Shown: positions 1-27,176 of the stretch, piece by piece
Layout: the number at the start of each line of letters is the position of its first letter
Numbering within the stretch: position 1 is the first letter of the stretch
Source of the DNA: Lebetimonas natsushimae
GTDB lineage: Bacteria > Campylobacterota > Campylobacteria > Campylobacterales > Nautiliaceae
NCBI RefSeq assembly: GCF_002335445.1
Contig: NZ_BDME01000001.1
Coordinates: forward strand, 124,001-188,000
Length of the DNA stretch: 64,000 bases
Direction of reading: 5' to 3'
Made by a program: the position numbers and the translations under genes
The notes under the pieces: model-generated
Seen by the model: only the letters and a program-made list of their open reading frames with translations
Told to the model about the DNA's origin: nothing
The model's database searches: none

Positions 1-210
1 TTGTTAAAACCTGTTTTAGAATTAAAAGGTAAGTGGATGTATCCTTTTGATTCACCATTTAGAGAAAAATGGTATAGTAAAAAAGAGTGGAAAAAAATTT
101 TGAAAGAAAACGGATTTACATTAGAAAATGTTGAAGTTATTGAAGGGAATGGAAAAAAATTTGTAAATAGATATTATTTGATAGAAGGAATAAAATGTCA
201 AAAACAATAG
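1..210 (+). CDS. 3' end of an unidentified protein (5'-truncated by window)
   Basis: The window opens inside this gene; the TTG at base 1 is probably an internal codon, so only about 69 C-terminal residues are visible. They are rich in Lys, Trp and aromatic residues, with a stretch resembling 'PFREKWYSKKEWKKILKENG'. That pattern, Trp-Tyr-Ser followed by a helix ending in Glu-Asn-Gly-Phe, recalls the C-terminal end of class I SAM-dependent methyltransferases, but this is only a resemblance. It overlaps the next gene by 16 bases, so it is probably the preceding member of the glycan operon. No function can be assigned safely. Confidence 0.5.
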   Translation: MLKPVLELKGKWMYPFDSPFREKWYSKKEWKKILKENGFTLENVEVIEGNGKKFVNRYYLIEGIKCQKQ

Positions 211-1535
211 CTGTTATTCTTGCTGGAGGAAGTGGAGAAAGATTTGGTAGTGAATTACCAAAACAATTTATTAAATTAGCCGGTAAACCTATAATAGAAT
301 ATACTTTAAAAACATTTCAAGAGCATCCTTTGATTGAGGAAATAATTGTAGTAATTAAACAAGAATATGAAGAAAAATTATGGAATATTGTAAAAGAAAA
401 TAATTTCTATAAAGTAAATAAAATTATTAATGGAGGAAAAGATAGATTTGGTTCAACTTATGCTGCATTAAATGCGTTAGAATATGAGGATAGCAATATT
501 AAAGTCCTTTTTCATGATGCAGTAAGACCATTAGTTGATAAAAAAACTATAGATGATGTTATTAAAGCTTTAGATAAATATGATGCAGTAGATACTGCAA
601 TAGATGCTACAGATACGATTATAAAAATAAATGATGATTGGATTATTGAAGATATTCCTAATCGTAAATATATGAAAAGAGGTCAAACCCCTCAAGGTTT
701 TAAATTAAATACCATAAAAAAGGCTTATCAAAAAGCAATTAATGAAAATAAGCGTAGTTTTACCTGTGATTGTGGTGTAGTTAATGAAATGTTAAAAATC
801 CCTATTAAAGTTGTAAAATCAACAATTAAAAATATAAAAATCACTTATCCTATTGATTTATATATTGCCGAAAAATATATTCAAATGGGAATAGAATATG
901 ATTTAAAAGAGATTAATTTAGAAAAATTAAAAGGTAAAAATATAGTTATTTTTGGGAATAGTAGTGGAATAGGAAAAGAAATTGAAAAAATTGCTTTAAA
1001 GTATGGGGCTAATGTATATGGTGGAAGTAGAAAAAATGGTTTAGATATAAGAGATAAAAAACATATTGAATCATTTTTATCAGAGATATCAAATATTGAT
1101 GTGATAATAAATACTGCTGCAATTTTATTTAAAAAACCATTAGATTATATGTCTGAAAAAGAAATAAATGAGATTATTGATATTAATTATAAAGGGACTG
1201 TAAATGTGGCATTGGTTGCAAAAAAATTTTTAGAAAAAACAAATGGAATGTTAATAAATTTTGCGTCAAGTTCTTATACGAGAGGTAGAGCTAATTACTC
1301 ATTATATTCTTCTTCAAAAGCAGCAATTGTAAATTTAACACAAGCTTTAAGTGAAGAGTGGGATAATGTGAAGGTTAATTGCATTGTTCCACAAAGAACT
1401 AAAACTCCTATGAGAGAAAGAAATTTTGGATATGAAGACCCATCTACTCTTTTAAATCCTTCTGATGTTGCATTAAAAACTTTAAAATTAGCTTTAAGTG
1501 ATAAAACAGGAATTATATTGGAGATAAAAAAGTGA
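195..1535 (+). CDS. Bifunctional cytidylyltransferase / short-chain dehydrogenase (ribitol-5-P type)
   Basis: Two fused enzymes. Residues 1 to about 230 form an IspD/TarI-like cytidylyltransferase with the nucleotide-binding stretch 'VILAGGSGERFGSELPKQF'. Residues about 247-446 form a short-chain dehydrogenase with a GNSSGIG dinucleotide loop and a Tyr-x3-Lys pair (YSSSKAA). The arrangement matches Haemophilus Bcs1/Acs1, where the reductase makes ribitol 5-phosphate from ribulose 5-phosphate and the transferase makes CDP-ribitol. By analogy this gene would make CDP-ribitol or a related CDP-polyol in the cytoplasm. Two CDP-alcohol phosphotransferase genes follow directly, which fits. The exact polyol is inference. 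The ATG at 195 is preceded by a GAAGGAA ribosome site. Confidence 0.85.
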   Translation: MSKTIAVILAGGSGERFGSELPKQFIKLAGKPIIEYTLKTFQEHPLIEEIIVVIKQEYEEKLWNIVKENNFYKVNKIINGGKDRFGSTYAALNALEYEDSNIKVLFHDAVRPLVDKKTIDDVIKALDKYDAVDTAIDATDTIIKINDDWIIEDIPNRKYMKRGQTPQGFKLNTIKKAYQKAINENKRSFTCDCGVVNEMLKIPIKVVKSTIKNIKITYPIDLYIAEKYIQMGIEYDLKEINLEKLKGKNIVIFGNSSGIGKEIEKIALKYGANVYGGSRKNGLDIRDKKHIESFLSEISNIDVIINTAAILFKKPLDYMSEKEINEIIDINYKGTVNVALVAKKFLEKTNGMLINFASSSYTRGRANYSLYSSSKAAIVNLTQALSEEWDNVKVNCIVPQRTKTPMRERNFGYEDPSTLLNPSDVALKTLKLALSDKTGIILEIKK

Positions 1536-2164
1536 ATAAAATAAACAAGAAAAAAGTGATAAAATATAGCGATTTTATTTCCAATTATTTTTATCAACAG
1601 ATAGCTTTTTTAATTACTTCTTTTTTAGTAAAAACAAAAATAACACCTAATATTATTACTTTAATCTCATTATTTTTAGGGATAATTAGTGCAATATTAG
1701 TATATTTACGTTCTCCAATATTAGCAATTATTTTTTTGAATTTTAGTTTTATTTTAGATTGTGTAGATGGGCAATTGGCAAGAGTCAAAAAATTGGAAAG
1801 TGATTTTGGAATGTGGTTAGATAATGTTTCTGATAGAATAGTAGAAAATATTATTATTTTATCAATAGGTTTTTTGTACATTAATAACACATTTTTAATA
1901 AAAGGAGTATTGTTACTTATTTTTTTAAATATGTTATATGCTTATATGAATGATATGGTAATATATCAGGGTAAAATATATAGGACTTTAACAGTAAAGG
2001 AAAAAATAATTTTTTCTCCTATTTATTTTATAAGTAGAAGTATGATTATTCCATTATTGTCATTATTAATAATTTTTCCATCAAAATTTGTTTGGATATT
2101 AAATGCTTTTTATTTTTATGGGATAATATTTAAAATATATAGGGAGATTAGTGGAAAAATATAA
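1532..2164 (+). CDS. CDP-alcohol phosphatidyltransferase family membrane protein (first copy)
   Basis: Integral membrane enzyme of about 210 residues carrying the family signature D-x2-DG-x2-AR-x8-G-x3-D-x3-D, visible as 'DCVDGQLARVKKLESDFG' followed by MWLDNVSD. The conserved Asp residues bind the divalent metal and the CDP-alcohol. Several hydrophobic helices follow. The GTG start at 1532 overlaps the previous stop by four bases, so translation is probably coupled to the CDP-polyol synthase. Family members transfer a phospho-alcohol from a CDP-alcohol to a hydroxyl acceptor, or a phosphatidyl group to an alcohol. Here the context suggests polyol phosphate transfer to a lipid-linked glycan, which is inference. 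Confidence 0.8.
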   Translation: MNKINKKKVIKYSDFISNYFYQQIAFLITSFLVKTKITPNIITLISLFLGIISAILVYLRSPILAIIFLNFSFILDCVDGQLARVKKLESDFGMWLDNVSDRIVENIIILSIGFLYINNTFLIKGVLLLIFLNMLYAYMNDMVIYQGKIYRTLTVKEKIIFSPIYFISRSMIIPLLSLLIIFPSKFVWILNAFYFYGIIFKIYREISGKI

Positions 2165-2843
2165 TTTAGAAAAAATTGAAAATACTTTTAAAGAAAAAAG
2201 TTGGTGGGCTATTATTTTTAATTTATTACCAGCGAAGTACATTACTTATTTTGTTGCAAATAAAACAAATATTACTCCTAATCAAATTACTTTTATAAGC
2301 TTTATAGTGGCTATTTTAGCAGGAGAGGCTTTTTTTAAAGGTTATTTTATTTTAGGTGCTATTTTATATCAATTAAGTTTTATTTTTGATATTGTAGATG
2401 GTGCCTTAGCAAGGGTTACAAATCAAAGTTCAAAATTTGGGGCTTTTTTTGATGTGTTTACAGATTGGATAAAAGCTCCATTATTATTTGTGATTATTTT
2501 TTTAAAAACTAATCATTATTATTCTTTAATTTTTTTATTATTGCTTTTATTTTGGCTTTGTTTGGCTAATAAATATAATGATATGCTTTTTTATAAAGGT
2601 ACAAAAAGTATTTCTAAAAATATAGCAGAAAAATCTTTTTCTGAAATGAATTTTATTGAAAAATATTTTTTTTATATGAAAAAAAATCATATTCAGCCTT
2701 TTCCATCCACTGTTGAAGTAGAAGGATTTTTGTTATTTTTATATCCTATTTTTCAAAAAGATGTTTTTATATATTTAGGCTTTATTATATTAATATTTCA
2801 ATTAGCGATTAAACTTTATATTATTATAAAAAAGATAAAATGA
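2151..2843 (+). CDS. CDP-alcohol phosphatidyltransferase family membrane protein (second copy)
   Basis: A second member of the family, about 230 residues, overlapping the first by 14 bases and starting at GTG 2151. The metal and CDP-binding signature is complete: 'DIVDGALARVTNQSSKFG' followed by AFFDVFTD. Long hydrophobic segments flank it, giving about six membrane helices. It differs enough from the first copy to be a separate activity rather than a fresh duplication. A tandem pair after a CDP-polyol synthase suggests two transfer steps, or two acceptors, in one glycan pathway. Housekeeping phospholipid synthases (PgsA, PssA) are the alternative but would not normally sit in a glycan locus. 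Confidence 0.8.
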   Translation: MEKYNLEKIENTFKEKSWWAIIFNLLPAKYITYFVANKTNITPNQITFISFIVAILAGEAFFKGYFILGAILYQLSFIFDIVDGALARVTNQSSKFGAFFDVFTDWIKAPLLFVIIFLKTNHYYSLIFLLLLLFWLCLANKYNDMLFYKGTKSISKNIAEKSFSEMNFIEKYFFYMKKNHIQPFPSTVEVEGFLLFLYPIFQKDVFIYLGFIILIFQLAIKLYIIIKKIK

Positions 2844-4030
2844 AAAAACTTTTATTTTCTGCTTCTTTTATTACTATTTTGGTAATGGGAATTAACTTTT
2901 TATTTAAAATATATCTTTCTTACAAAATAGATAAAAATGAATTAGGACTTTTTTACACTTTTATGGATGTTATTAGTGTAGGAATTATGTTATTTAGTGG
3001 ATTTAAGGATAGTCTTGTGGTTGCGTATGACAATGAAGATTTTGAAAAAATCTTTTTTTGGTATAAAAGAATATTTTGGGGATTGGTTTTAATATTAATG
3101 GGGGGAGAATTATTTTATTATTCAAAACTTTCTTTTAATTATCCTGTTTATTTTTTAATTTTATTGTTTTTAGCAAATAGCTATATGATTTATCTTTCTT
3201 ATTTAAACGCTGCTTTTAAAAATTACAAAGTTATGCTTTTTGAAAATTTAGTTATGTCTATAGGACTTATTTTGGGATATTTTATATTTTCATTTAGTAA
3301 ATATGTATTATTTTTTGCATTTTTAACATCTTATATGGGTAGAATTTTGTATCTTAAAATTTTTGGAAATTTAAGGTTAAAAGAGAAAAAAGCTTCTTTT
3401 TTAGAGGTGAAAAATTTTTTTAAGAATAGTTTATTAAGTTCGTTAATGTATTTTTTTAGTGGTTTATTTGTTAGTTTAAGTGCAATAACTTTTCTTTATT
3501 TTTATGATAATAAAGATATTTTATCTGAATATCATGTAGTAGTTAGGAGTATATTTTTTTCATTGGTTGCAATTTTTGTATTTCCTTTAAATACCTTTAC
3601 TTTTCCTCATATTTCAAAATTTATTGCTGAAGGTAAATTTTATGAAATTTTGAGAATAGAAAAAAAACTTTTTAGATATCTGTTTATTTTTTTTATTTTA
3701 CTGATATTTTCTACATTTTTTACTAAATTTGGAATTGAATTGGTTTTTCCAATTTCTTACAAAGAAAGTTATAAAATGCTAAATTTAATGTTGCCTTTTT
3801 TACCTTTTATTGCGTATACAACTTTTGCATTGAATATTTTAAAAGGTTTTAACAGATTTGATTTAGCTTTAATTGTCAGAATAGCAGGAAGTTTGACATT
3901 TTTTATGGTTTTTTATTTTTTATTCAAAATAAATGTTACACCTAATAAAACATTGATATTTAGTTTAGATAGTGCATTTTTTGTTATGTTTTTAATTTCT
4001 TTTATTTTTAGAATAAAGGTTTTAAAATGA
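2840..4030 (+). CDS. Wzx-like polysaccharide flippase (MOP superfamily)
   Basis: A 396-residue, almost wholly hydrophobic protein with about twelve predicted membrane helices and short basic loops, typical in length and layout of Wzx/O-antigen flippases. The N-terminus contains the common 'GLFYTFMDV' type turn after the first helix. It overlaps both neighbours by four bases (ATGA-type overlaps), so it is translated within the glycan operon. Its likely job is to move undecaprenyl-diphosphate-linked oligosaccharide across the inner membrane. No PglK-type ABC flippase is present in the window, so this protein or the MurJ-like protein at 23431 may supply PglB with its glycan donor. Assignment rests on topology and context. 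Confidence 0.7.
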   Translation: MKKLLFSASFITILVMGINFLFKIYLSYKIDKNELGLFYTFMDVISVGIMLFSGFKDSLVVAYDNEDFEKIFFWYKRIFWGLVLILMGGELFYYSKLSFNYPVYFLILLFLANSYMIYLSYLNAAFKNYKVMLFENLVMSIGLILGYFIFSFSKYVLFFAFLTSYMGRILYLKIFGNLRLKEKKASFLEVKNFFKNSLLSSLMYFFSGLFVSLSAITFLYFYDNKDILSEYHVVVRSIFFSLVAIFVFPLNTFTFPHISKFIAEGKFYEILRIEKKLFRYLFIFFILLIFSTFFTKFGIELVFPISYKESYKMLNLMLPFLPFIAYTTFALNILKGFNRFDLALIVRIAGSLTFFMVFYFLFKINVTPNKTLIFSLDSAFFVMFLISFIFRIKVLK

Positions 4031-5079
4031 ATATGCTTTTTATTCCGCATGTTCCAAACATTTCAGTTGTTAATAGAGTATATGAATTTGCAAAAAATAG
4101 TAATAGTTTCTATCTTTATTGGAATATTGATAATTCTTCATTTAAAGCAAAAATAAAATCTCAAATTTCTTCTTTAAAATATAGAATTGATGGTAAAAAA
4201 ATTGAAATTCCTCTTTTATTTAAGCCGGACAAAATTGCCATTTATTTTAACACTTTTATATTAAATAGGATTATTGAAAAGTTAAAAATAGATGTAGTAA
4301 TTAATGCAAATGCTTTGTTGTTTGATGTTAGCAAAATAAAAGTTCCGGTAGTTTATGATTTAGTGGACGACCATTTAAGTGAAAATAAAGATATCGGTTT
4401 AAATAAAGACAGGGTAGAAAAAATTAAAAGGGATATTAAAGCGAGTAAAGGTGTGATTTGTGTAACGGAAATTTTAGAAGAAAAGGTTAGAATGTTAAAT
4501 AAGAATACAATTACCATTGAAAATGGAATTTATTTTAAAAAATTTAAAAAAGCTAAATCGTTAAAAAAAGAACTTAATTTAGAAAATAAAAAAGTTTTTG
4601 GATTTATTGGAGGAATTGAAAAATGGACTGGAATTGAAAAAGCAATTAAAGAATATTTGAAAATTAAAAATGATTCTACCGCTTTTTTGGTTATAGGTGG
4701 AAATAGTGGAGAATTTTATAAAAATTTAGTTAAAAAATATGCAAATGATGTTTTATTTATTGGCAGAGTAGCACCTAAGAAAGTGGCAGATTATTTTAAA
4801 ACTATTGATGTTGGATTAATTCCGTTTGAATTAAATGATTTTACCAATAATTCATTACCTATAAAAGCATTGGAATATGGATTAGGTGGGGCTCATGTGA
4901 TTTCGACTCCTTTAAATGCCCTTAAAAGAAAGAATTTTCCTTTTATTCATTTTTGTGAGATAGAAAATTTTCATAAATGTATGTTGAAAGATTTTGAAAA
5001 AGTGAATTTTGATTTTAGCAAATATGATTGGAAAAATCAGGCTAACAAATTGATTAAATTTATAAAAGAGGTTGTATGA
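4027..5079 (+). CDS. Glycosyltransferase, GT-B fold (GT4-like)
   Basis: About 350 residues with a Rossmann-like N-terminal half and a C-terminal half showing GT4-type features: 'KVFGFIGGIEKWTGIEKAI' (donor-domain start), 'VLFIGRVAPKKVADYFKTID' and a Pro-Phe-x-x-N-D-F-T-N region before 'LPIKALEYG', which corresponds to the nucleotide-sugar binding E-x7-E area (here partly diverged). It acts in the cytoplasm on lipid-linked glycan. The start overlaps the flippase stop by four bases, and the gene overlaps the GT9-like gene downstream in the same way. Donor and linkage cannot be read from sequence. Confidence 0.75.
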   Translation: MNMLFIPHVPNISVVNRVYEFAKNSNSFYLYWNIDNSSFKAKIKSQISSLKYRIDGKKIEIPLLFKPDKIAIYFNTFILNRIIEKLKIDVVINANALLFDVSKIKVPVVYDLVDDHLSENKDIGLNKDRVEKIKRDIKASKGVICVTEILEEKVRMLNKNTITIENGIYFKKFKKAKSLKKELNLENKKVFGFIGGIEKWTGIEKAIKEYLKIKNDSTAFLVIGGNSGEFYKNLVKKYANDVLFIGRVAPKKVADYFKTIDVGLIPFELNDFTNNSLPIKALEYGLGGAHVISTPLNALKRKNFPFIHFCEIENFHKCMLKDFEKVNFDFSKYDWKNQANKLIKFIKEVV

Positions 5080-5966
5080 AAAAAATCTTAGTAATTCATA
5101 CCTGGGGAATGGGAGATTTAATTTTAGCAACACCAATGCTTAAAAGTTTAGCTAAAAGCGGATATATAGTTGATTTAGCTGTTTTTGGAAGTTTTGCAAA
5201 AATAATTTTAAAAAATAATGATTTTATTAAACAGATTTATGAATTAAATTCTTTATTTAATTTATTAAAATTTTTTGGGAAATATGATTATTTAGTATCA
5301 ACTGCGGGCACAAATCCTATTAAAATAAAGTTATTGGGTAAAATGTTAGGAGTTAAAAGAATATTTACACTAAAGCAAGAAAGAAACATTCATCGAATAG
5401 ATATGAATTTAAAAATTGTTAAATCGCTTTTAAAAATAGTAGATAAGGAGCCCTATATTTACATAAATGATTGTAAAAAATATATAAAAAAAGGAGAAAA
5501 AAATATTGGATTTGCTGTTGGGAGTGGTGCTAAACAGAAGTTTAAAAGATGGGATAGAGAAAAATATAAAGAATTGATAGGAAGAATAGAAGGAAATAAA
5601 TTGGTTTTTTTGGGAAAAGATGAAAGTGATTTGGAAGAATTTTTTAAAAATTTAGATGTTACAATTGTAAAAGAAAATTTAGAAGATGTAATAGGAATTA
5701 TTTCTAATTTGAATTTATTAGTAGGTAATGATAATGGCCTTATGCATATAGGATATGCTACAAAAATAAATACTGTTACCATTTTTGGAATGACAAATGA
5801 AAAAGAAACAGGAGGTTATAGAAAAAATAATGAAAATGTATTTTTAAATTTAGAATGTCGCCCTTGTTTTGATCCATCGACTGATAAACTTAAATGTAAT
5901 ACTTATGAATGTTTAAAAAATTTGGAAAGTGAGAATGTATGGAAAGTTTGCCAAAAATATCTATAA
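5076..5966 (+). CDS. Glycosyltransferase family 9 (heptosyltransferase-like)
   Basis: A 296-residue GT9-type enzyme. The N-terminus 'KKILVIHTWGMGDLILATP' carries the G-x-GD motif of heptosyltransferases, and the C-terminal domain has 'LVGNDNGLMHIGYA' matching the conserved D-(S/N)-G-x-x-H-x-A donor-binding loop. Four Cys residues near the C-terminus (ECRPCF...CNTYEC) are unusual for the family and could form a metal site or disulfides. It lies in the middle of the glycan operon, overlapping the next gene by 28 bases. Heptose transfer is typical of the family, but other sugars are possible. Confidence 0.8.
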   Translation: MKKILVIHTWGMGDLILATPMLKSLAKSGYIVDLAVFGSFAKIILKNNDFIKQIYELNSLFNLLKFFGKYDYLVSTAGTNPIKIKLLGKMLGVKRIFTLKQERNIHRIDMNLKIVKSLLKIVDKEPYIYINDCKKYIKKGEKNIGFAVGSGAKQKFKRWDREKYKELIGRIEGNKLVFLGKDESDLEEFFKNLDVTIVKENLEDVIGIISNLNLLVGNDNGLMHIGYATKINTVTIFGMTNEKETGGYRKNNENVFLNLECRPCFDPSTDKLKCNTYECLKNLESENVWKVCQKYL

Positions 5967-6946
5967 TAATTCCAATTTATAATGAGGAAAAATATATTGC
6001 TAAATGTTTAGATTCGATAATAGATAGTGATTTTGATAAAGAAAAATTTGAAGTTTTATTAGTTGATGGGGGAAGTAGTGATAAAACTGTTGAAATTATA
6101 AAAGAATATCAAAAAAAGTATCCTTTTTTTAAACTTTTACATAATCCCAAAAAAATTGTGCCTATTGCTATGAATATTGGCATAAAAAATGCAAAAGGTG
6201 AATATATAATAAGACTTGATGCTCATTCTATATATCCGAAAGATTATTTTAAGAAGCTAATTTATTATCATAAAAAATTAAATGCTGATAATGTAGGGGG
6301 TGTTGTTATTACAGAAGTGAAAAATAAAAATAATACTTCAAATGCTATAAAAAATGTTTTAAGTGATAAGCTTGGAGTTGGAAGTGCATTTAGAAGCGGA
6401 GTTAATGAAATAAAAGAAGTTGATACAGTGCCTTTTGGATGTTATAAAAGAGAAATTTTTAATAAAGTAGGGCTTTATGATGAGAGACTTGTCAGAAATC
6501 AGGATATTGAACTTAATAAAAGAATAAAAAAAGCCGGAGGGAAAATATATCTTATTCCAGATATTAAATGCACATATTTTGCAAGAGAAAATTACAAAGA
6601 TTTGGCTAAAAATAATTTTAATAATGGACTTTGGAATATTTTGACAGCTTATTATACCAATTCGTTAAATTCACTTTCCTTTAGACATTTTGTTCCTTTA
6701 ATTTTTATTTTGAGTTTGATATTTACTTTTTTATTGGGAATTTTTAATAAGTTCTTTTTTTATCTCTTTTTATTTATTTTGTTTAGTTATTTAATTATAA
6801 TTTCAATCAGAAGTTTTCAAATAAAAAAAAATACGACTTTTTTCCATCAGCTTTTAGCTTTTTTGGTTTTGCATTTTAGTTATGGAATAGGTAGTTTAGC
6901 AGGTGTTTTTAAAATTTTAAAGGATAAATATGTCAAAAGAAAATAG
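5939..6946 (+). CDS. Glycosyltransferase family 2, ExoA-like, membrane-anchored
   Basis: The N-terminal 230 residues are a GT2 domain: 'ISIIIPIYNEEKYIAKCLDS', 'VLLVDGGSSDKT' for the nucleotide, 'YIIRLDAHS' as the D-x-D/H metal motif, and the acceptor-side 'RNQDIELNKRIKKAG' (ED-type motif). The last 90 residues hold two or three membrane helices. The layout resembles succinoglycan enzyme ExoA. The ATG at 5939 lies within the end of the GT9 gene, a 28-base overlap that implies translational coupling. It probably extends the lipid-linked glycan that the following oligosaccharyltransferase uses. Confidence 0.85.
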   Translation: MESLPKISIIIPIYNEEKYIAKCLDSIIDSDFDKEKFEVLLVDGGSSDKTVEIIKEYQKKYPFFKLLHNPKKIVPIAMNIGIKNAKGEYIIRLDAHSIYPKDYFKKLIYYHKKLNADNVGGVVITEVKNKNNTSNAIKNVLSDKLGVGSAFRSGVNEIKEVDTVPFGCYKREIFNKVGLYDERLVRNQDIELNKRIKKAGGKIYLIPDIKCTYFARENYKDLAKNNFNNGLWNILTAYYTNSLNSLSFRHFVPLIFILSLIFTFLLGIFNKFFFYLFLFILFSYLIIISIRSFQIKKNTTFFHQLLAFLVLHFSYGIGSLAGVFKILKDKYVKRK

Positions 6947-9080
6947 ATTAGTTTTAGGTTTGATTATTATTGCTTATATATTTAGTTATTTTTTTCATAC
7001 TCATTTTTGGATAGACTGGGCTAGTAAAATATCTCAGTTTATCTGGCACGGGCAGGTTATGATAAATAATCCTGACGGATATTTTTATGGGAGCGGAGTT
7101 CAAAAAATTGTGTATCATGAGCATTTATACAATCCCAGACTTTTAGGGGTTTGGCATTATGGAACTTCTGTAATAACGGCTTTTTTAGCTAAATTTTTTC
7201 ATATAAATATCGATACATTAATGCTTTATTTACCGGCTGTTATTTCTTCATTAGTGGTAATTCCCATTATTTTAATAGGAAAGCTTTATAAAAACTTAAC
7301 ATGGGGATTTCTGGCGGCTTTAATTGGAAGTATAGGATGGAGTTATTATAACAGAACTCTTGCAGGATATTATGATACAGATATGTTTAGTGCAAGTTTG
7401 CCTATGTTTATTTTATATTTTTTACTAGCAAGTATTAAAAACCGTTCTTTAAATTATCTGCTTGCAGCTGCTTTTACTATTATTTTATATCCTTTTCTTT
7501 ATGACCAGGGGCTATCAATTGTTTATGCAATGGGTATAATGGCTTTTATTTATCTTATTTTTACTAAAGATAACAAATTATCAATAAACTTAAATGATGA
7601 ATTTGTATTTAAATTTATAATTATTCTTTCAATTGCTTTAATGGATATAAATTGGATAATTAGAATTGTTTTATTAATAGGTGTTTATTATTTGTTTAAA
7701 ATAAAAGAATTTAAATTAAGAGGACTTCAAATCAGTGCTTTGGTATTTTTTATCTTGTTTTTATTTACAGGGAATGTTTTTGGCATTATTTTAAATAAAA
7801 TTTTTTCTTATTCAACCTCTACAGAAGCAGAAAAAGGTCTTCAATTTTTAAATGTAAATAAAACAGTAAGAGAAGCGGGGCATATTCCTTGGTATATAGT
7901 ATTTGACAGGATTATTGGAAGTACATTGGGAATTATTATTGCACTTGTTGGATATATTTTGCTTATTAAAAGATATAAAGAATTTATTATAGCTCTTCCT
8001 TTATGGGGGATAGGATTTTTTGCTTTTATAGGAGGTCTTAGATTTACTGTTTATGCAGTGCCGATTGCCGCAATCAGCGGGGTTTATTTTTTTGTGTGGC
8101 TGGCGGAAAAATGGAAAATGGAAAATGAAAAATGGAAAATCACAATATCTGTTATTGGCAGTGTTTTTTTAATAGCGCCGAACATTTCACATATTGCTGG
8201 ATGTTGTGAAAAAAATAAATTTTTGGCTTCCATCAGCAAAATTTATCCGTTAAGCAGTTATCCTTATTTAACTCCTACGGTATTTAATAAAAATGAAGTT
8301 GAGGTTTTAGATAAATTAAAAAAACTTTCAAACCCAAAAGATTATGTAATTACCTGGTGGGATTACGGATATCCTATCTGGTATTATGCCGATGTTAATA
8401 CATTGGTGGACGGTGGAAAACATAATGAAGATAATTTTTTGGTGTCAAAAATTTTAACCACTTCAAATCAGTTTCTTGCAGCAAATCTGTCAAAACTTGC
8501 TATTAAAAAATATGTAGAAACAAATAAAACAGTGGCAACCCAGCTTTTTATAAAAAACGGAAAACCAATTGATGTAAATGGATTTTTAGATGAAGTCGGA
8601 AGTAAAGAGTATAAAGCTCCAAAACTTGACAGAAATGTTTATTTAATGTTTCCATACAGGATGTTTAATATTTACCCGACAGTTGCAGTGTTTAGCAATA
8701 GAAATTTAAATACCGGAGAAATTTATCCAAATCACTTTTTTTATAAAAACAGAATTAGAAAACAGGGAAATTATCTGTTAGTAGGGAATATTCCTGTTGA
8801 TCTAAGAACTGCTGAAATAATACTTAGAAACAGAATCCCTGTTAAAGAACTTGATATATCTTTTTATGATAAAGATGGAAAATTAAAGGTTAAAAAACAG
8901 CATTTAAGAAATGAAGGGCTTAATTTGATTATTTTACAAAATTATAGAGAAGCCCTGATTGTAGATGATTATTATTATAATTCAACATTTATTCAGATGT
9001 TTGTATTTGAAAATTATGATAAAAATCTTTTTGAACCGGTAATATTGAATCCTATGATAAAAATTTATAAGATAAAATGA
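6930..9080 (+). CDS. pglB: STT3/PglB-type oligosaccharyltransferase
   Basis: At 716 residues this matches Campylobacter jejuni PglB in length. An N-terminal membrane domain of about 13 helices is followed by a periplasmic domain. The diagnostic 'TWWDYGYPIWYYADV' (WWDYG acceptor-binding motif, about residue 475) is intact, as is an early DGYFYGSG acidic loop and a D-x-D pair in 'YYDTDMFS'. It transfers glycan from undecaprenyl diphosphate to Asn in D/E-x-N-x-S/T sequons in the periplasm. Oddly, about residues 393-405 (EKWKMENEKWKIT) are encoded by the dispersed 7-bp repeat, inserted in frame between two membrane helices. It overlaps the PglC-like gene by four bases. Confidence 0.95.
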   Translation: MSKENRLVLGLIIIAYIFSYFFHTHFWIDWASKISQFIWHGQVMINNPDGYFYGSGVQKIVYHEHLYNPRLLGVWHYGTSVITAFLAKFFHINIDTLMLYLPAVISSLVVIPIILIGKLYKNLTWGFLAALIGSIGWSYYNRTLAGYYDTDMFSASLPMFILYFLLASIKNRSLNYLLAAAFTIILYPFLYDQGLSIVYAMGIMAFIYLIFTKDNKLSINLNDEFVFKFIIILSIALMDINWIIRIVLLIGVYYLFKIKEFKLRGLQISALVFFILFLFTGNVFGIILNKIFSYSTSTEAEKGLQFLNVNKTVREAGHIPWYIVFDRIIGSTLGIIIALVGYILLIKRYKEFIIALPLWGIGFFAFIGGLRFTVYAVPIAAISGVYFFVWLAEKWKMENEKWKITISVIGSVFLIAPNISHIAGCCEKNKFLASISKIYPLSSYPYLTPTVFNKNEVEVLDKLKKLSNPKDYVITWWDYGYPIWYYADVNTLVDGGKHNEDNFLVSKILTTSNQFLAANLSKLAIKKYVETNKTVATQLFIKNGKPIDVNGFLDEVGSKEYKAPKLDRNVYLMFPYRMFNIYPTVAVFSNRNLNTGEIYPNHFFYKNRIRKQGNYLLVGNIPVDLRTAEIILRNRIPVKELDISFYDKDGKLKVKKQHLRNEGLNLIILQNYREALIVDDYYYNSTFIQMFVFENYDKNLFEPVILNPMIKIYKIK
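8105..8140 (+). repeat. Heptad repeat inside pglB coding sequence
   Basis: Tandem 7-mers ATGGAAA, ATGGAAA, ATGAAAA, ATGGAAA read in frame through the oligosaccharyltransferase gene. They encode a charged, Trp- and Lys-rich stretch in the loop before the next membrane helix. Confidence 0.85.
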
Positions 9081-9667
9081 GTAAAAAAGATAAAATAATC
9101 AAGCGTGCTTTTGACTTTTTTTTAGCCTTTTTTGGGCTTTTAATTACCTGGCCGACAATTTTAATTGCCTGGATTATCGCAAGCATTGAAACTAAATCAA
9201 ACGGTTTTTTTTTGCAAAAAAGAGTTGGGGAAAATGGAAAACTGTTTACTATTATAAAAATAAAAACGATGTATCCAAATAAAGGTTCAACCGTTACAAC
9301 TGCAAATAATTCAAGGATTACAAAAAGCGGCAGGTTTTTTAGAAAATATAAAATTGACGAGCTGCCTCAGCTAATTAATGTTTTAAAGGGTGATATGTCT
9401 TTTGTAGGACCTCGGCCGGATGTGCCTGGATATGCAGATAAATTAGAAGGTGATGACAGAATAATTTTAAGCATAAAACCCGGAATTACAGGGCCTGCAA
9501 GTTTAAAGTATAAAAATGAAGAGGAAATTTTAGCAAGTGTTGATAATCCAAAAGAGTATAATGATAAAGTAATTTGGCCCGATAAGGTAAAAATAAATAA
9601 AGAATATATTAAAAACTGGTCACTTAAAAAAGATATTGAATATATTATTAAAACTATTAAAGGTTAG
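9077..9667 (+). CDS. pglC: PglC-like polyprenyl-phosphate sugar-1-phosphate transferase
   Basis: A 196-residue monotopic phosphoglycosyl transferase, close to the usual 200 residues. It has one N-terminal membrane hairpin (about 11-35), the 'FFLQKRVGENGKLFTIIKIK' substrate region, the catalytic Asp-Glu dyad in 'KIDELPQLINVLKGDMSFVG' and the following PRPD motif. It attaches the first sugar phosphate to undecaprenyl phosphate at the inner membrane, starting the N-glycan. It begins on the last bases of pglB and is followed three bases later by the aminotransferase, matching a pgl operon. Bacillosamine-type sugar is expected but not proven. Confidence 0.88.
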   Translation: MSKKDKIIKRAFDFFLAFFGLLITWPTILIAWIIASIETKSNGFFLQKRVGENGKLFTIIKIKTMYPNKGSTVTTANNSRITKSGRFFRKYKIDELPQLINVLKGDMSFVGPRPDVPGYADKLEGDDRIILSIKPGITGPASLKYKNEEEILASVDNPKEYNDKVIWPDKVKINKEYIKNWSLKKDIEYIIKTIKG

Positions 9668-9670
9668 AAG

Positions 9671-10768
9671 ATGATTTATCTTTCACCCCCACATATGAGC
9701 GGAAAAGAAATTGAGTATGTAAAAAAAGCGTTTGAGAGTAATTATATAGCCCCTCTTGGTGAGTTTGTAGATAAGTTTGAGGACTTGATAAAAAATTATA
9801 CCGGCGCTAAAGCGGCTCTTGCCGTTTGCAATGCTACAAGCGGACTTCATCTGGCTCTTAGGGTCTTGGGAATAAAAGACAGTAAGGTTGCAGTTTCGAC
9901 TTTTACTTTTATAGGTTCTGTTAATCCTATTCTTTATGAAAGAAATAAACCTGTTTTTATAGATGTGGATGAATATTGGCATATGGATGCAGAACTGCTT
10001 GAAAAGGCTGTAAAGGAAAATGATATAAAGGCAGTAATTTTGCCCCATATTTACGGGCAGGTTGCAGATATCGAGCCTATTTTGGAAATATGCAAAAAAA
10101 ATGATATTTATTTAATTGAAGATGCGGCTGAGAGTCTTGGGGCGTATTATAAATTAAAAATGGATAACGGAGAATGGAAAATTAAATACAGCGGAACTTT
10201 TGGAATTTTTGGGGTTTACAGTTTTAATGGAAATAAGCTTTTAACCACAAGCAGCGGGGGAGTGTTGGTTGGTAATGATGAAAATTTGATAAAAAAAGCA
10301 AGATTTTTATCTACTCAGGCAAAAGAAGCTGATTTTATGGAATATGTGCATAAAGAAGTCGGATATAATTACAGAATGAGTAATATTTTGGCGGCTGTCG
10401 GTGTAGGGCAAATGGAGGTTGTGGAAGAGAGAATAGCTAAAAAAAGAGAGATTTTTAACTGGTACAGGGAGTTTTTGGATGAAGAATTTATGCCAGAACT
10501 TTCCAATACCAGAGGAACAAGATGGCTTACAACTGTTGTTTTTAAAGATAAAGATCCTTGGGAAGTTATGAAAAAATTAAGAGTTAACGAAATTGAAAGC
10601 AGACCTCTTTGGAATCCTATGCATCTGCAGCCCTTGTTTAATGGGGCAAAAGCTTATCTCAATGGCAGAAGTGAAGAATTATTTAAAAAAGGACTTTGCC
10701 TTCCAAGCGGAACAACTTTAACACAAAAACAGGTAAAGGATATTTGTGAAATTGTCAAATCTTCTTAG
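9671..10768 (+). CDS. pglE: PglE-like UDP-4-keto-6-deoxyhexose aminotransferase
   Basis: A 365-residue DegT/DnrJ/EryC1/StrS enzyme using PLP. Visible features are 'IEDAAESLGAYY' (Asp that contacts the PLP ring nitrogen), the Schiff-base Lys in 'SFNGNKLLTTSSGG', and 'YNYRMSNILAAVGVGQ' for the substrate side. It would aminate the 4-keto sugar made by the PglF-like enzyme encoded next. About residues 160-173 (KLKMDNGEWKIKYS) come from the dispersed 7-bp repeat and sit between the Asp and Lys motifs. No PglD acetyltransferase gene lies beside it, so the final sugar may differ from diNAcBac. Confidence 0.88.
   Translation: MIYLSPPHMSGKEIEYVKKAFESNYIAPLGEFVDKFEDLIKNYTGAKAALAVCNATSGLHLALRVLGIKDSKVAVSTFTFIGSVNPILYERNKPVFIDVDEYWHMDAELLEKAVKENDIKAVILPHIYGQVADIEPILEICKKNDIYLIEDAAESLGAYYKLKMDNGEWKIKYSGTFGIFGVYSFNGNKLLTTSSGGVLVGNDENLIKKARFLSTQAKEADFMEYVHKEVGYNYRMSNILAAVGVGQMEVVEERIAKKREIFNWYREFLDEEFMPELSNTRGTRWLTTVVFKDKDPWEVMKKLRVNEIESRPLWNPMHLQPLFNGAKAYLNGRSEELFKKGLCLPSGTTLTQKQVKDICEIVKSS
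10153..10187 (+). repeat. Heptad repeat inside pglE-like gene
   Basis: Units AATGGAT, AACGGAG, AATGGAA, AATTAAA lie in frame between the regions encoding the PLP-binding Asp and Lys motifs. The encoded loop looks inserted relative to the tight spacing usual in the family; an alignment is needed to be sure. Confidence 0.7.
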
Positions 10769-12491
10769 GCCTACAAATTTTAAGAGGGCGCTGTTTTTTA
10801 TAACAGGAGATATAATAATTTCATTTTTTACACTTTTTTTATCTTATCTTCTCAGGTTTAATTTTTCAATTCCAAAAGAATATTTAGCTAATTTTTGGCA
10901 GATAGCTTTTGTTTTTATTTTTTTTAAACTGGTTTTTTATTATGTTTTTAAACTTTATTTTGTAAGCTGGAGATTTTTTTCGCTAAAAGAGCTTAAATCT
11001 TTAATTCTTGCTACGACACTAGCTTATATTTTGGGCGGGGGAGTGCTATTAATTTTTAGAGAGTTTTTTATACCTTTTCCAAGAAGTGTTATTATTATCG
11101 ATTATTTTTTATCAATTCTTTTTATAGGTTTTTTTAGAATTTCAAAAAGGCTTATAATTGAAAAAATTTCTACAAATAAAACCCCTGCAATTATAATAGG
11201 AGCTAATAAAAAAGCAATTTCTCTTTTGAAACAGGATATTCCTTATTCAGTTCTTGAAGTTTATGATAATAAAAAAAATTTAATCGGAAGTTATATTTAC
11301 GGAATTAAGGTAGAAGATGTTTCAAAAATAGACGGAAAAATAAAAACAGCAATTATCACCAAAGAATTATCTCAAAAAGAGCTTGATAAACTGGTTGAAT
11401 TTTTACAGAGTAAGGGAATAGAAGATATTAAAATATATAATCCTTTTGAGAAGAAAATAAAAGATATTTCTATTGAAGATTTGTTGGCTAGAAAACCAAA
11501 GGATTTGGATAAAAATGCAATTGAAAATTTTGTAAAAAATAAAAAAATTTTAATAACAGGTGCCGGCGGAAGTATTGGAAGTGAAATAGCAAGGCAGTGT
11601 GAAAAATATAAAGCCAAAGAACTTATTTTAGTGGATAACTCTGAATTCAACCTTTATTCCATAAATGAGGAACTTAATATTAAAAGATATCCTTGTTTGG
11701 TTGATGTTACAAAAAAAGAGGATTTAGAAGAAGTTTTTAAAAAATACACTCCTGAAATTGTAATTCATGCAGCGGCTTACAAACATGTGCCTATGTGTGA
11801 ATATAATCCTAAAAGTGCTGTAGTAAATAATATACTCGGGACTAAAAACGTAATAGACTTAGCAATAAAATATAATATAAAAGATTTTATTTTAATTTCC
11901 ACAGATAAAGCAGTTAGGCCTACAAATATAATGGGTGCTACAAAAAGGGTGTGTGAACTTTACGCTCAGAATATTGACAGCAAAAACACAAAAATATGTG
12001 CTGTAAGATTTGGGAATGTGCTTGGCAGCAGCGGCAGTGTGGTGCCTAAATTTAAAAAACTGATTGAAGAAAATAAACCTTTAACAGTGACCCATCCGGA
12101 AATTACAAGATTTTTTATGCTGATTCCTGAAGCATGCCAGCTGGTATTGCAGGCTGGAAGTTTGGCCGAGGATAAAGAGATTTTTATTCTGGATATGGGG
12201 GAACCTGTAAAGATAGTGGATTTAGCCAAAAAAATGCTAAAACTTTATGGAAAAAATGAAGATAATATTGAATTTATTGGACTCAGACCTGGAGAAAAGC
12301 TCTACGAAGAGCTTTTAATTGATGAGGCTGACAAAAAAACTAAATATAAAGACATATTTGTTGCTAAAGCAACTTTTTATGATATTAAAAAATTAAACGA
12401 CCAAATTGAAAACTTACTTCAAAAGAATATAAAACAAGATATTATAAAATTGTTAAGAGAAATGGTGAAAGAATATAATCCAAACGATTAA
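10746..12491 (+). CDS. pglF: PglF-like UDP-GlcNAc 4,6-dehydratase, membrane-anchored
   Basis: A 581-residue protein: four N-terminal membrane helices (about 1-135), a CoA-binding-like nucleotide domain, then an extended SDR dehydratase domain starting at 'KILITGAGGSIGSEIARQ'. The active-site region shows 'HAAAYKHVPMCE' and 'STDKAVRPTNIMGATKR', with the Met-x3-Lys variant of the catalytic Tyr typical of this subfamily. It converts UDP-GlcNAc to the 4-keto-6-deoxy sugar. It starts at GTG 10746 within the end of the aminotransferase gene (23-base overlap), so the two steps are coupled. C. jejuni PglF has nearly the same length. Confidence 0.92.
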   Translation: MKLSNLLRPTNFKRALFFITGDIIISFFTLFLSYLLRFNFSIPKEYLANFWQIAFVFIFFKLVFYYVFKLYFVSWRFFSLKELKSLILATTLAYILGGGVLLIFREFFIPFPRSVIIIDYFLSILFIGFFRISKRLIIEKISTNKTPAIIIGANKKAISLLKQDIPYSVLEVYDNKKNLIGSYIYGIKVEDVSKIDGKIKTAIITKELSQKELDKLVEFLQSKGIEDIKIYNPFEKKIKDISIEDLLARKPKDLDKNAIENFVKNKKILITGAGGSIGSEIARQCEKYKAKELILVDNSEFNLYSINEELNIKRYPCLVDVTKKEDLEEVFKKYTPEIVIHAAAYKHVPMCEYNPKSAVVNNILGTKNVIDLAIKYNIKDFILISTDKAVRPTNIMGATKRVCELYAQNIDSKNTKICAVRFGNVLGSSGSVVPKFKKLIEENKPLTVTHPEITRFFMLIPEACQLVLQAGSLAEDKEIFILDMGEPVKIVDLAKKMLKLYGKNEDNIEFIGLRPGEKLYEELLIDEADKKTKYKDIFVAKATFYDIKKLNDQIENLLQKNIKQDIIKLLREMVKEYNPND

Positions 12492-14150: not shown

Positions 14151-15194
14151 ATGAAAATTTTGATTACGGGGACAGCAGGATTTATAGGCTTTCATTTAGC
14201 CAATGCTTTAATTAAAAGAGGTGATGAGGTAATCGGGCTTGATAATATAAATGATTATTATGACGTAAATTTAAAATATGCTAGATTAAATGAGGCCGGA
14301 ATTGATAAAGAAAAAATAGAATATAATGAGATAGTGAAGTCAAACAAGTATCCAAATTATAAATTTATAAAATTGAATCTTGAAGACAAGTTTAACCTTT
14401 TTAAACTTTTTGAAAAAGAAAAATTTGATAAAGTATGTCACCTTGCGGCTCAGGCAGGGGTGAGATATTCTCTTAAAAATCCCGATGCATATATAAACTC
14501 AAACATAATTGGACATATGAATATATTAGAAGCTGTAAGACATAACGGAGTGAACGCTCTTGCATATGCCAGCAGTTCGAGTGTATACGGACTGAATAAA
14601 AAACAGCCGTTTTCAACAGACGACAATGTAGACCATCCGGTAAGTTTATATGCAGCTACAAAAAAGGCGGACGAACTTATGAGTCATACATATTCGTATC
14701 TTTATAATATCCCCACAACCGGTCTTAGATTTTTTACTGTATATGGTCCATGGGGAAGACCTGATATGGCGCTTTTTAAATTTGTAAAAAATATTTTAGA
14801 AGATAAACCGATTGATGTTTATAATTACGGTGAAATGAAAAGAGATTTTACATATATTGATGATATTATTGAAGGGGTTGTCAGAGTAATTGACAATCCC
14901 CCAAAACCAAAACCTGATTGGGATGGCAGGGCGAGTGAGAGTGTGGCGCCGTATAAAGTTTATAATATAGGAAACGGGGCACCTGTTAAACTTATGGATT
15001 TTATAGAGGCTATTGAAGAAGTGCTTGGTAAAAAGGCTAAAAAAAATCTGCTTCCTATGCAGCCGGGAGACGTGGCAAGCACATGGGCTAATACTAGTGA
15101 TTTGGAAAAAGATTTGGGTTATAAACCTTATACTGATGTAAGAGAGGGAATTAAAAATTTTGTAGATTGGTATAGAAAGTTTTATGATATTTAA
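14151..15194 (+). CDS. UDP-glucuronate 4-epimerase (extended SDR)
   Basis: A 347-residue extended SDR enzyme with '[20 protein letters not shown]' at the N-terminus and the catalytic '[13 protein letters not shown]' (Tyr-x3-Lys). The '[17 protein letters not shown]' stretch and '[19 protein letters not shown]' are typical of the UDP-glucuronate/UDP-galacturonate 4-epimerase subgroup (LspL/Cap1J type). It follows ugd directly, so the pair would make UDP-galacturonate for surface glycan. The ATG at 14151 follows AAGGAA. Subgroup assignment rests on recalled motifs. Confidence 0.88.
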
Positions 15195-15202
15195 GGAGAG
15201 GG

Positions 15203-16237
15203 ATGAATATTTTAGTAACAGGGGGAGCCGGATATATTGGAAGTCATGTTGTTAAGCTTTTGCTTGAAAACAGTGATTATGATGTAACAGTTATAGATAA
15301 TTTGGTAACAGGATTTAAAGATACGGTTGATACTTTAAGACAGATAAGAGAGTTTCAGTTTATTAAAGCTGATTTAAGTAATTGGAATGAAATTAAAGGA
15401 ATATTTAAAACTAAAAAATTTGATGCGATTATTCATTTTGCAGCAAGTTTGATTGTACCTGAAAGTGTAGAAAAACCTTTGAAATATTATCTTAATAATA
15501 CCGCCAATACCGCAAATTTAGTAAATTTGGCTGTTGAATATGGAGTTGAGAAATTTATATTCTCTTCTACGGCTGCAGTTTACGGGGAAACGGATATTCA
15601 ATTAAAAATGGAAAATGTAAAATGTAAAATGGAAGGAATTAGGGGAGAATTTCCTACAAATCCGATAAATCCATACGGGCAGAGTAAACTTTTTAGTGAA
15701 AAAATTATTCAGGATGCGGCTAAAGCTTACGGTTTAAAATATGTAATTTTCAGATATTTTAATGTGGCGGGTGCCAGTCCTGATTTAATGATAGGGCAAA
15801 AAACAAAAAATGCGACCCATTTAATAAAAGTGGCAAGCGAATGTGCAGTGGGTAAAAGAGATAAAATGTATATATTCGGGACAGATTATCCAACACCTGA
15901 CGGTACCTGTATAAGGGATTATATTCATGTGATGGATTTGGCTGATGCACATATAAAAGCTCTTGATTATTTAGATAACAATAAAAGTGATATTTTTAAT
16001 GTCGGATATGGAAGAGGTGCCAGTGTAAAAGAGGTGATTGATACTGTAAAAAAAGTAAGCGGAGTTGATTTTAAAGTTGAAAATGCCCCAAGAAGAGTGG
16101 CAGACCCAGCCGTTCTTATTTCAGATAACAGTAAAATTCAGCAAAAAATGGGTTGGATTCCAAAATATGACGATTTGGAATTTATCTGTAAAACTGCATA
16201 TGAGTGGGAGAAAAAACTAATGGAAAATGAAAAGTGA
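15203..16237 (+). CDS. galE: UDP-glucose/UDP-GlcNAc 4-epimerase
   Basis: A 344-residue SDR epimerase with 'NILVTGGAGYIGSHVVKLLL', 'STAAVYGE' and the catalytic Tyr-x3-Lys in 'NPYGQSKLFSEKI'. It interconverts UDP-glucose and UDP-galactose, or the GlcNAc forms. Residues about 135-147 (LKMENVKCKMEGI) are encoded by the 7-bp repeat and lie just after the Ser-Thr of the active site and before the Tyr, a loop where GalE proteins normally have a few residues. The C-terminus (MENEK) also ends inside repeat units. The gene starts eight bases after the epimerase, behind AAGGAGAGG. Confidence 0.93.
   Translation: MNILVTGGAGYIGSHVVKLLLENSDYDVTVIDNLVTGFKDTVDTLRQIREFQFIKADLSNWNEIKGIFKTKKFDAIIHFAASLIVPESVEKPLKYYLNNTANTANLVNLAVEYGVEKFIFSSTAAVYGETDIQLKMENVKCKMEGIRGEFPTNPINPYGQSKLFSEKIIQDAAKAYGLKYVIFRYFNVAGASPDLMIGQKTKNATHLIKVASECAVGKRDKMYIFGTDYPTPDGTCIRDYIHVMDLADAHIKALDYLDNNKSDIFNVGYGRGASVKEVIDTVKKVSGVDFKVENAPRRVADPAVLISDNSKIQQKMGWIPKYDDLEFICKTAYEWEKKLMENEK
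15603..15636 (+). repeat. Heptad repeat inside galE
   Basis: Units AAAATGG, AAAATGT, AAAATGT, AAAATGG run in frame through the epimerase gene and encode a Lys/Met/Glu-rich loop. Confidence 0.85.
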
Positions 16238-16260
16238 AAAGTTAAAAATGAAAAAGAAAG
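16219..16260 (+). repeat. Heptad repeat between galE and galU
   Basis: Units AATGGAA, AATGAAA, AGTGAAA, AGTTAAA, AATGAAA. The galE stop codon is the TGA within the AGTGAAA unit, and the array fills most of the short gap before galU. Confidence 0.8.
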
Positions 16261-16267
16261 GAAAAAA

Positions 16268-17077
16268 ATGATTAAAAAAGCATTGTTTCCGGCAGCCGGA
16301 TATGGTACGAGATTTTTGCCGGCTACTAAATCAGTTCCAAAAGAGATGCTGCCAGTTGTTAATAAACCGCTTATTCATTATGGTATTCAGGAATGTATGA
16401 ATGCGGGTATTTTTGAAATAGGGTTTGTAACAGGTAGAAACAAAAGGGCGATTGAGGATTATCTTGATTTTTCACCTGAACTTGAAGATAAAATAAAAGA
16501 TTCTTCCAAAGCAGAACTACTTAGAGAAACAAATGAAATGATAGAAAAGTGTACTTTTACTTATGTAAGGCAAAAAGAAATGTTAGGTCTTGGGCATGCT
16601 GTTTTAACGGGAGAGCCGTTAATAGGGAATAATCCTTTTGCTGTAGTTTTGGCGGATGATTTATGTGTAGGGGATGTTTTAACCCAAATGGTAAATCTTT
16701 ATAAAAAATACAAATGCACCATAGTTGGGGTTGAAGAAGTAGATAAAAATGAAGTAAACAAATACGGAATAGTGGCCGGCAGAAAAATAGAAGATAGTGT
16801 CATTATGGTTGATGATATGGTTGAAAAACCTGATGTTGACAAAGCACCAAGCAATCTTGCAATTATAGGAAGATATATTTTAACTCCGGATATATTTAAT
16901 TTATTAAAAAAGGTAAAACCCGGAAAAGGCGGTGAGATTCAACTAACCGATGCAATCAGAATGCAGGCACATGAGGGTATGGTAATAGCATATAAATTTA
17001 AAGGTAAAAGATTTGACTGCGGAAGTATACCAGGATTTATAGAAGCTACTAATTATATTTATGAAAATATGAAATAA
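16268..17077 (+). CDS. galU: UTP--glucose-1-phosphate uridylyltransferase
   Basis: A 269-residue nucleotidyltransferase with 'KALFPAAGYGTRFLPATKSV' (GXGTR loop and Lys), 'VVLADDLCVGD' as the metal site and 'GEIQLTDAIRM' near the C-terminus, all typical of GalU. It makes UDP-glucose from UTP and glucose-1-phosphate, feeding GalE and Ugd encoded just upstream. The ATG at 16268 follows GAAAGGAA. Length matches the family. Confidence 0.96.
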   Translation: MIKKALFPAAGYGTRFLPATKSVPKEMLPVVNKPLIHYGIQECMNAGIFEIGFVTGRNKRAIEDYLDFSPELEDKIKDSSKAELLRETNEMIEKCTFTYVRQKEMLGLGHAVLTGEPLIGNNPFAVVLADDLCVGDVLTQMVNLYKKYKCTIVGVEEVDKNEVNKYGIVAGRKIEDSVIMVDDMVEKPDVDKAPSNLAIIGRYILTPDIFNLLKKVKPGKGGEIQLTDAIRMQAHEGMVIAYKFKGKRFDCGSIPGFIEATNYIYENMK

Positions 17078-17089
17078 AGGCAATTATAT

Positions 17090-18859: not shown

Positions 18860-18890
18860 AATATATGTATTAATTAATTTGTTAATTAAA

Positions 18891-18907
18891 AAAGGAGTGT
18901 AAAAATT
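18891..18907 (+). promoter_or_regulatory. Shine-Dalgarno and AUU initiation codon of the O-antigen ligase gene
   Basis: AAAGGAG ends at 18897, seven bases before ATT 18905. The frame is open from here into the ligase gene and closed upstream by TAA at 18887. No ATG, GTG or TTG occurs at a suitable distance. Confidence 0.6.
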
Positions 18908-22255: not shown

Positions 22256-22256
22256 A

Positions 22257-27166: not shown

Positions 27167-27176
27167 GGTGTAAAGT

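Follow-up and report, generated by a model that had tools for sequence, protein, structure and literature searches.

In a 64,000-nucleotide stretch of Lebetimonas natsushimae DNA (contig NZ_BDME01000001.1, positions 124,001 to 188,000; hereafter the window), the operon of the oligosaccharyltransferase PglB carries a cassette that encodes a cytidylyltransferase fused to an SDR reductase (CytT-SDR) and two CDP-alcohol phosphotransferases (CDP-APs), CAP_A and CAP_B. We consider it probable that this is a CDP-ribitol cassette, and that its CDP-APs add ribitol phosphate to the glycan while this is still lipid-linked and unflipped. The evidence is sequence-based: gene content, motifs, operon overlap, swapping of the cassette among related loci and the absence of other transferase families from the host. 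We also lean, if only slightly, toward a broader proposal, where CDP-APs of this kind would be cytoplasmic-face phospho-alcohol transferases acting on lipid-linked oligosaccharides, and an exchangeable cassette (ribitol, glycerol, serine-type or aminoalkanol-type) would diversify N-glycans much as a capsule locus does.

The window operon

The open reading frames (ORFs) of the locus lie on the + strand, and the ORF listing shows them overlapping continuously from TOR_MT to PglC in one operon:

1..210, +: 3' end of TOR_MT, an alpha/alpha-toroid plus S-adenosylmethionine-dependent methyltransferase (full gene, L005:12453-14210)
195..1535, +: predicted bifunctional CDP-ribitol synthase, with an IspD/TarI-type cytidylyltransferase (residues 5-230) and an SDR reductase (residues ~245-446)
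1532..2164, +: CAP_A, CDP-alcohol phosphotransferase A, probable polyol-phosphate transferase (PF01066, 1.3e-14; motif DCVDGQLARVKKLESDFGMWLDNVSD)
2151..2843, +: CAP_B, CDP-alcohol phosphotransferase B, probable second polyol-phosphate transferase (PF01066, 3.6e-14; motif DIVDGALARVTNQSSKFGAFFDVFTD)
2840..4030, +: Wzx-like flippase, which closes the cassette slot on the right (30-56% identical to its positional counterparts in relatives)
4027..5079, +: GT-B glycosyltransferase (GTB), conserved along with the cassette (PF00534/PF13692)
5076..5966, +: GT9 (heptosyltransferase-type) glycosyltransferase (PF01075, 1.8e-21)
5939..6946, +: GT2 glycosyltransferase (PF00535, 1.1e-35)
6930..9080, +: PglB oligosaccharyltransferase, the bacterial STT3 (STT3-PglB_core, 1.6e-41)
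9077..9667, +: PglC-type phosphoglycosyltransferase (PF02397, 4.8e-54)
9671..10768, +: PglE/LegC-type aminotransferase (PF01041, 5e-86)
10746..12491, +: presumed PglF-type nucleotide-sugar dehydratase (position conserved in relatives)

The end of TOR_MT overlaps the start of the fusion by 16 bases. The name PglF is our presumption from family resemblance and the place of the ORF after the PglE homologue. PglB, PglC/E/F and the flippase share one operon here and in relatives, as in a PglB N-glycosylation locus; the window PglB scores 384 bits against NF050801 (ProtGlycPglB), under the 1300-bit cut-off. The flippase has no Pfam match of its own, and its homologue in L028 matches Polysacc_synt. 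We rejected an archaeal origin, raised by the STT3-like WWDYGY motif, since the relatives are Campylobacterales. The window STT3 is of the bacterial PglB kind, and its host belongs to the Campylobacterota.

The initial annotation, made from the letters of the sequence, had named a CDP-ribitol-type synthase fusion at 195-1535, two CDP-APs after it in place of TagF or LicD enzymes, and a flippase and STT3 in the same overlapping operon. These assignments hold: they agree with the Pfam domains, ribitol-type PDB matches and SDR motifs of the fusion, with PF01066 scores over the gathering score and intact motifs in the CDP-APs, with a host genome free of PF04464 and PF04991, and with the ORF coordinates and PglB core match.

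The predicted CDP-ribitol synthase fusion

A soluble donor is well supported, and the sequence of the fusion predicts a CDP-ribitol synthase. Pfam assigns IspD to residues 5-230 (9.4e-49) and adh_short to residues 284-409 (2.8e-27), and the best PDB matches of the N-terminal domain are ribitol-5-phosphate cytidylyltransferases (127.8 bits), with plant IspD behind at 104 bits. The fusion scores 182.2 bits against the ribitol-type family NF001183 (cut-off 166), and its SDR part has GNSSGIG, NTAA and YSSSK, keeping the nucleotide-binding and YxxxK motifs. The combination of a ribitol-type cytidylyltransferase with an SDR reductase, catalytic residues kept, is that of a Bcs1-type synthase. Bcs1/Acs1 of Haemophilus influenzae is a bifunctional CDP-ribitol synthase, likewise an IspD-type cytidylyltransferase fused to an SDR reductase; its CDP-ribitol is consumed by a capsule polymerase, whereas in the window CDP-APs come next. 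Ribitol is probably the alcohol that the window cassette handles.

Full-length homologues of the fusion occur in Proteus and Parabacteroides (46-47% identity). The one in a Parabacteroides glycan cluster carries the RefSeq name "bifunctional cytidylyltransferase/SDR family oxidoreductase" and adjoins LicD. In Parabacteroides distasonis (L082) the fusion (46.5% identity) resembles that of the window in lying inside a glycan cluster, with a sugar transferase and Wzy, and differs in that the transferase is LicD, not a CDP-AP, and there is no PglB.

The two CDP-alcohol phosphotransferases

CAP_A and CAP_B belong to the CDP-AP superfamily (PF01066): both exceed the Pfam gathering score, keep intact the motif DxxDGxxARx(7-9)GxxxDxxxD and have models that match the six-helix fold of solved CDP-APs. 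Neither reaches the cut-off of any named CDP-AP family in NCBIfam (PgsA, PssA, PIPS, archaetidylinositol-P synthase or IPCT-DIPPS); the best scores of the pair are 77.6 bits against 180 for archaetidylinositol-P synthase, 71.3 against 580 for IPCT-DIPPS and 50 against 170 for PIPS. AlphaFold2 models (pLDDT 77.8 and 83.7, from shallow alignments) place AF2299 and IPCT-DIPPS as the nearest PDB folds, in that order for CAP_A (TM score 0.80 to solved CDP-APs) and in the reverse order for CAP_B. The substrate of IPCT-DIPPS, CDP-inositol, is a soluble CDP-alcohol, and its single chain holds both a CDP-AP and a cytidylyltransferase, a further likeness to the pairing in the window. IPCT-DIPPS (4mnd) and AF2299 (4o6m) are alike to the window pair in fold and intact motif, and differ in serving archaeal solute or unknown pathways and in sharing only 17-27% identity.

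The window CAP_A is 47% identical to its counterparts in the presumed Nitratiruptor loci that carry a TagD-type glycerol-3-phosphate cytidylyltransferase (GCT) and 60-62% identical to those of the CytT-SDR-type loci L029 and L032, as against 62% and 59-61% for CAP_B. By TOR_MT identity the window is closer to the GCT-type genomes (77-79% against 56-64%). CAP_A may therefore track the type of donor, and CAP_B not; we regard this as a hint only, because GTB is skewed the same way, if less strongly. The CDP-AP tree carries long-branch warnings, and no claim about deep branching rests on it.

The host genome

The genome from which the window comes (G000; 1.64 Mb in 8 contigs, with a listed completeness of 100%) has four CDP-APs, namely PgsA (168.6 bits, cut-off 109.1), PssA (162.1 bits, cut-off 107), CAP_A and CAP_B, of which the first two lie outside the cassette. 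A Pfam search found no LicD (PF04991), TagF-type (PF04464) or sulfatase-fold (PF00884) protein in it, and control genomes gave matches. The host thus has no TagF/LicD polyol-phosphate transfer system, neither in the operon nor as a consumer of CDP-ribitol elsewhere, and because all three families are absent, the CDP-AP pair is the only candidate among known polyol-phosphate transferase families that could use CDP-ribitol. The fusion is not the genome's sole methylerythritol phosphate (MEP) pathway cytidylyltransferase, as a second IspD-type gene exists (G000:C2:246209-246793, in a 380-residue frame that we take to be IspDF). A hidden GCT supplying CAP_B was also rejected; the sole weak TagD match is a 465-residue frame, presumably HldE.

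Cassette swapping and distribution

We compared 11 related loci, using TOR_MT as an anchor and following the genes up to the flippase. The slot between the two holds six types of cassette, each with a soluble cytidylyl- or nucleotidyltransferase and one or more CDP-APs:

Type 1 (window, L029/G225, L032): CytT-SDR, CAP_A and CAP_B
Type 2 (G054, G080): GCT, CAP_A and CAP_B
Type 3 (L033/G178): CytT-SDR, a distinct CAP_D and a KpsS-like protein
Type 4 (L030/G258): asparagine-synthase-like protein, GCT-like protein, CAP_E and kinase-like proteins
Type 5 (L031/G026, G023): nucleotidyltransferase fused to a SerK/SbnI-like serine-kinase domain, methyltransferase, amino-acid racemase and CAP_C
Type 6 (G075): nucleotidyltransferase fused to a CobD/HisC-like pyridoxal phosphate (PLP) domain, methyltransferase, CAP_F and a LicD-like protein

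The nucleotidyltransferases of the slot span different folds (IspD/LicC-like and TagD-like), and the constant feature is therefore CTP activation paired with a CDP-AP. Since the changing CTP-activating enzyme always accompanies the CDP-AP, a soluble CDP-polyol, and not CDP-diacylglycerol, would feed these transferases. The recurrence of the arrangement in relatives makes it more than chance in the window, and the presence of other CTP-activating genes and CDP-APs in the same slot suggests that the decoration is exchangeable. The donors would include CDP-ribitol and CDP-glycerol, with a kinase-linked CDP-serine and a CobD-like CDP-aminoalkanol predicted; for types 4-6, the donors are predicted from the domains present. 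The motif is intact in the window CDP-APs and in all homologues of CAP_A, CAP_B and CAP_C, and its third Asp is replaced by Glu in those of CAP_D, CAP_E and CAP_F. G054 and G080 are probably Nitratiruptor, since they share a genus label with G178, which matches the Nitratiruptor record L033.

The three-gene set of the window, which the initial annotation had proposed to look for in other genomes, is present in L029/G225 and L032. Both CAP_A and CAP_B are carried by five loci only; in the fragmented genome G004, the GCT adjoins TOR_MT and CAP_B lies on a separate contig. Among 399 genomes of the order, which includes Nitratiruptor and other Campylobacterales, a CAP_B-type match occurs in 7 and TOR_MT in 10, with all 7 falling within those 10 (4e-13 if genomes are taken as independent, the true figure being larger owing to relatedness). 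Across the phylum, 397 genomes yielded just 4 with CAP_A, each of them cassette-bearing, and the carriers of the cassette are mostly vent-type Campylobacterota. No CDP-AP motif was found in six frames in 12 PglB loci of genomes without TOR_MT, some of which end at contig ends, nor in six frames on the PglB contig of G004.

Several loci show further variation. The fusion of L032 (11773-12747) is missing ~125 SDR residues, possibly through an assembly error or gene decay, and LicD and GCT genes lie farther down the same locus. Fusions of a nucleotidyltransferase with a SerK/SbnI-like domain at L028:11764-12771 and L062:16483-17478, with cysteate-racemase-like and methyltransferase neighbours, are predicted to make a CDP-serine-type donor. 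A fusion with a CobD/HisC-like PLP domain at L063:2016-3824, next to methyltransferase, CDP-AP and LicD-like genes, is predicted to belong to a CDP-aminoalkanol pathway.

Proposed mechanism and alternatives

In the proposed pathway, the SDR part of the fusion would reduce ribulose 5-phosphate to ribitol 5-phosphate, which the IspD/TarI part would convert with CTP into CDP-ribitol. CAP_A, CAP_B or both would then use CDP-ribitol to attach ribitol phosphate, through a hydroxyl group, to the undecaprenyl-linked glycan at the cytoplasmic face, releasing CMP; the flippase would turn over the decorated lipid-linked glycan, and PglB would pass it to asparagine. The initial annotation had likewise suggested that membrane CDP-APs decorate the lipid-linked glycan. 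The part of this concerning a soluble CDP-polyol donor is strongly supported by the slot swapping, and the host has a separate PgsA, PssA and second IspD-type gene; the reaction is our proposal, and the glycan acceptor we infer from gene order and from operon linkage to PglB and the flippase.

Some observations weigh against this pathway. LicD genes lie inside the locus of two relatives, and two CDP-APs stand beside a single CDP-polyol. The product of the cassette could also serve a second glycan cluster 14-29 kb into the window (14151-28586), with an O-antigen-ligase-type Wzy_C protein, a MurJ-like flippase, several glycosyltransferases and ManC. The fusion also clears the NCBIfam cut-off for IspD (189.3 against 181.3 bits). 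This last point, together with the Pfam family name of the CAPs, would suit ordinary lipid metabolism, with both CAPs as CDP-diacylglycerol-dependent enzymes of the PgsA/PssA kind and the fusion as an isoprenoid IspD. However, the host has a PgsA, a PssA and another IspD-family gene elsewhere, on which grounds we rejected both identities, and CAP_A and CAP_B fall under every cut-off for CDP-diacylglycerol enzymes; we consider this reading very unlikely. Finally, pairs of a cytidylyltransferase and a CDP-AP are known with lipid acceptors, both in the Bacteroidetes proposal of CDP-inositol and diacylglycerol (PMC9246714) and in a P. distasonis cluster of CTP-transferase, SDR, CDP-AP and acyltransferase, and lipids are the product of most known CDP-APs. 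The main rival is accordingly a Kennedy-type reaction, in which the CDP-APs use CDP-ribitol with diacylglycerol or another lipid as acceptor to give a ribitol phospholipid, the place in the operon being incidental or the lipid a later donor. We judge it unlikely given the strict linkage to the TOR_MT/PglB operon with slot swapping inside it, the overlap of the CAP_B and flippase genes, and the tagD and CDP-AP pair in a Lactiplantibacillus plantarum exopolysaccharide cluster; periplasmic transfer from such a phosphatidyl-polyol by a sulfatase-fold enzyme was rejected because the host has no PF00884-family transferase.

A soluble polyol phosphodiester, serving this thermophile as a compatible solute like di-myo-inositol phosphate, is suggested by the presence of IPCT-DIPPS among the nearest folds and profiles. 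With a score of 71 bits against a cut-off of 580, the linkage to an N-glycan operon and predicted serine- and amino-type donors in the same slot that fit a solute poorly, we regard it as highly improbable. Transfer to the lipid-linked glycan is compatible with a refinement that we put forward tentatively, and think rather doubtful, where CAP_A moves the variable CDP-polyol and CAP_B takes a donor-independent step (such as use of CDP-diacylglycerol, or a heterodimer with CAP_A). Such a division of labour would account for the divergence of CAP_A, but not CAP_B, with donor type and for CAP_B alone on another contig in G004. However, region-wide recombination could explain the skew that GTB shares, only a handful of loci carry both genes, and the CAP_B motif is intact.

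Comparison with known systems

EptC adds phosphoethanolamine to the N-glycan of C. jejuni, likewise a phospho-alcohol on a Campylobacterota N-glycan; it differs in being a periplasmic sulfatase-fold enzyme that uses phosphatidylethanolamine, of a fold absent from the host genome. The exopolysaccharide cluster on plasmid pSN35N-3 of L. plantarum SN35N (L085:5523-6729) has tagD adjoining a CDP-AP in a glycan cluster with a flippase, so glycan-locus CDP-APs exist outside the Campylobacterota group, although its product is not an N-glycan and identity to CAP_A is 29.5% over 59% of the latter. The alternate inositol-lipid cluster of Bacteroidetes shares a soluble cytidylyltransferase, a CDP-AP and Kennedy-type logic, and differs in its lipid product and in having no glycan operon (PMC9246714). 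In PntC/LicC phosphonate and phosphocholine tailoring (PMC6697681), a small phospho-compound is likewise activated with CTP for decoration of a surface glycan, but transfer is attributed to LicD-like enzymes, and PntC is fused to a different aminotransferase. In P. distasonis, the run at L081:5786-8719 (cytidyltransferase, SDR, CDP-AP and acyltransferase) resembles a pathway for a lipid head group that has yet to be described.

Taken singly, the enzymes belong to known kinds; their combination and the cassette swap appear to be new. As the initial annotation suspected, we found no described counterpart of the pathway in the open-access literature, subscription literature lying outside the search; within that scope, no paper assigned CDP-APs to glycan or N-glycan decoration or brought CDP-APs together with glycans and either CDP-ribitol or CDP-glycerol. 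If the proposal is true, CDP-APs, known for lipids and solutes, would gain a role in tailoring protein N-glycans, and this would account for a possible addition of phospho-alcohols ahead of flipping where a bacterium has no LicD, TagF or Ept enzyme. From the swap one would expect about four distinct decorations of the N-glycan among Campylobacterota that have names and in part can be cultured, and the membrane transferases with their matched donors would be useful to glycoengineering.

TOR_MT and a related PglB locus

TOR_MT, a marker for PglB loci of the kind seen here, matches Methyltransf_23 (7.2e-17) and SQHop_cyclase_C (9.4e-11), and is ~43-79% identical across all cassette-bearing Campylobacterales. 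Its matches in Saprospiraceae were set aside, as they have the toroid part alone in common and no cassette by homology. In a genome of the same genus as the host, the PglB match at G001:C1:803164-804399 is interrupted by two stops, and no cassette accompanies it.

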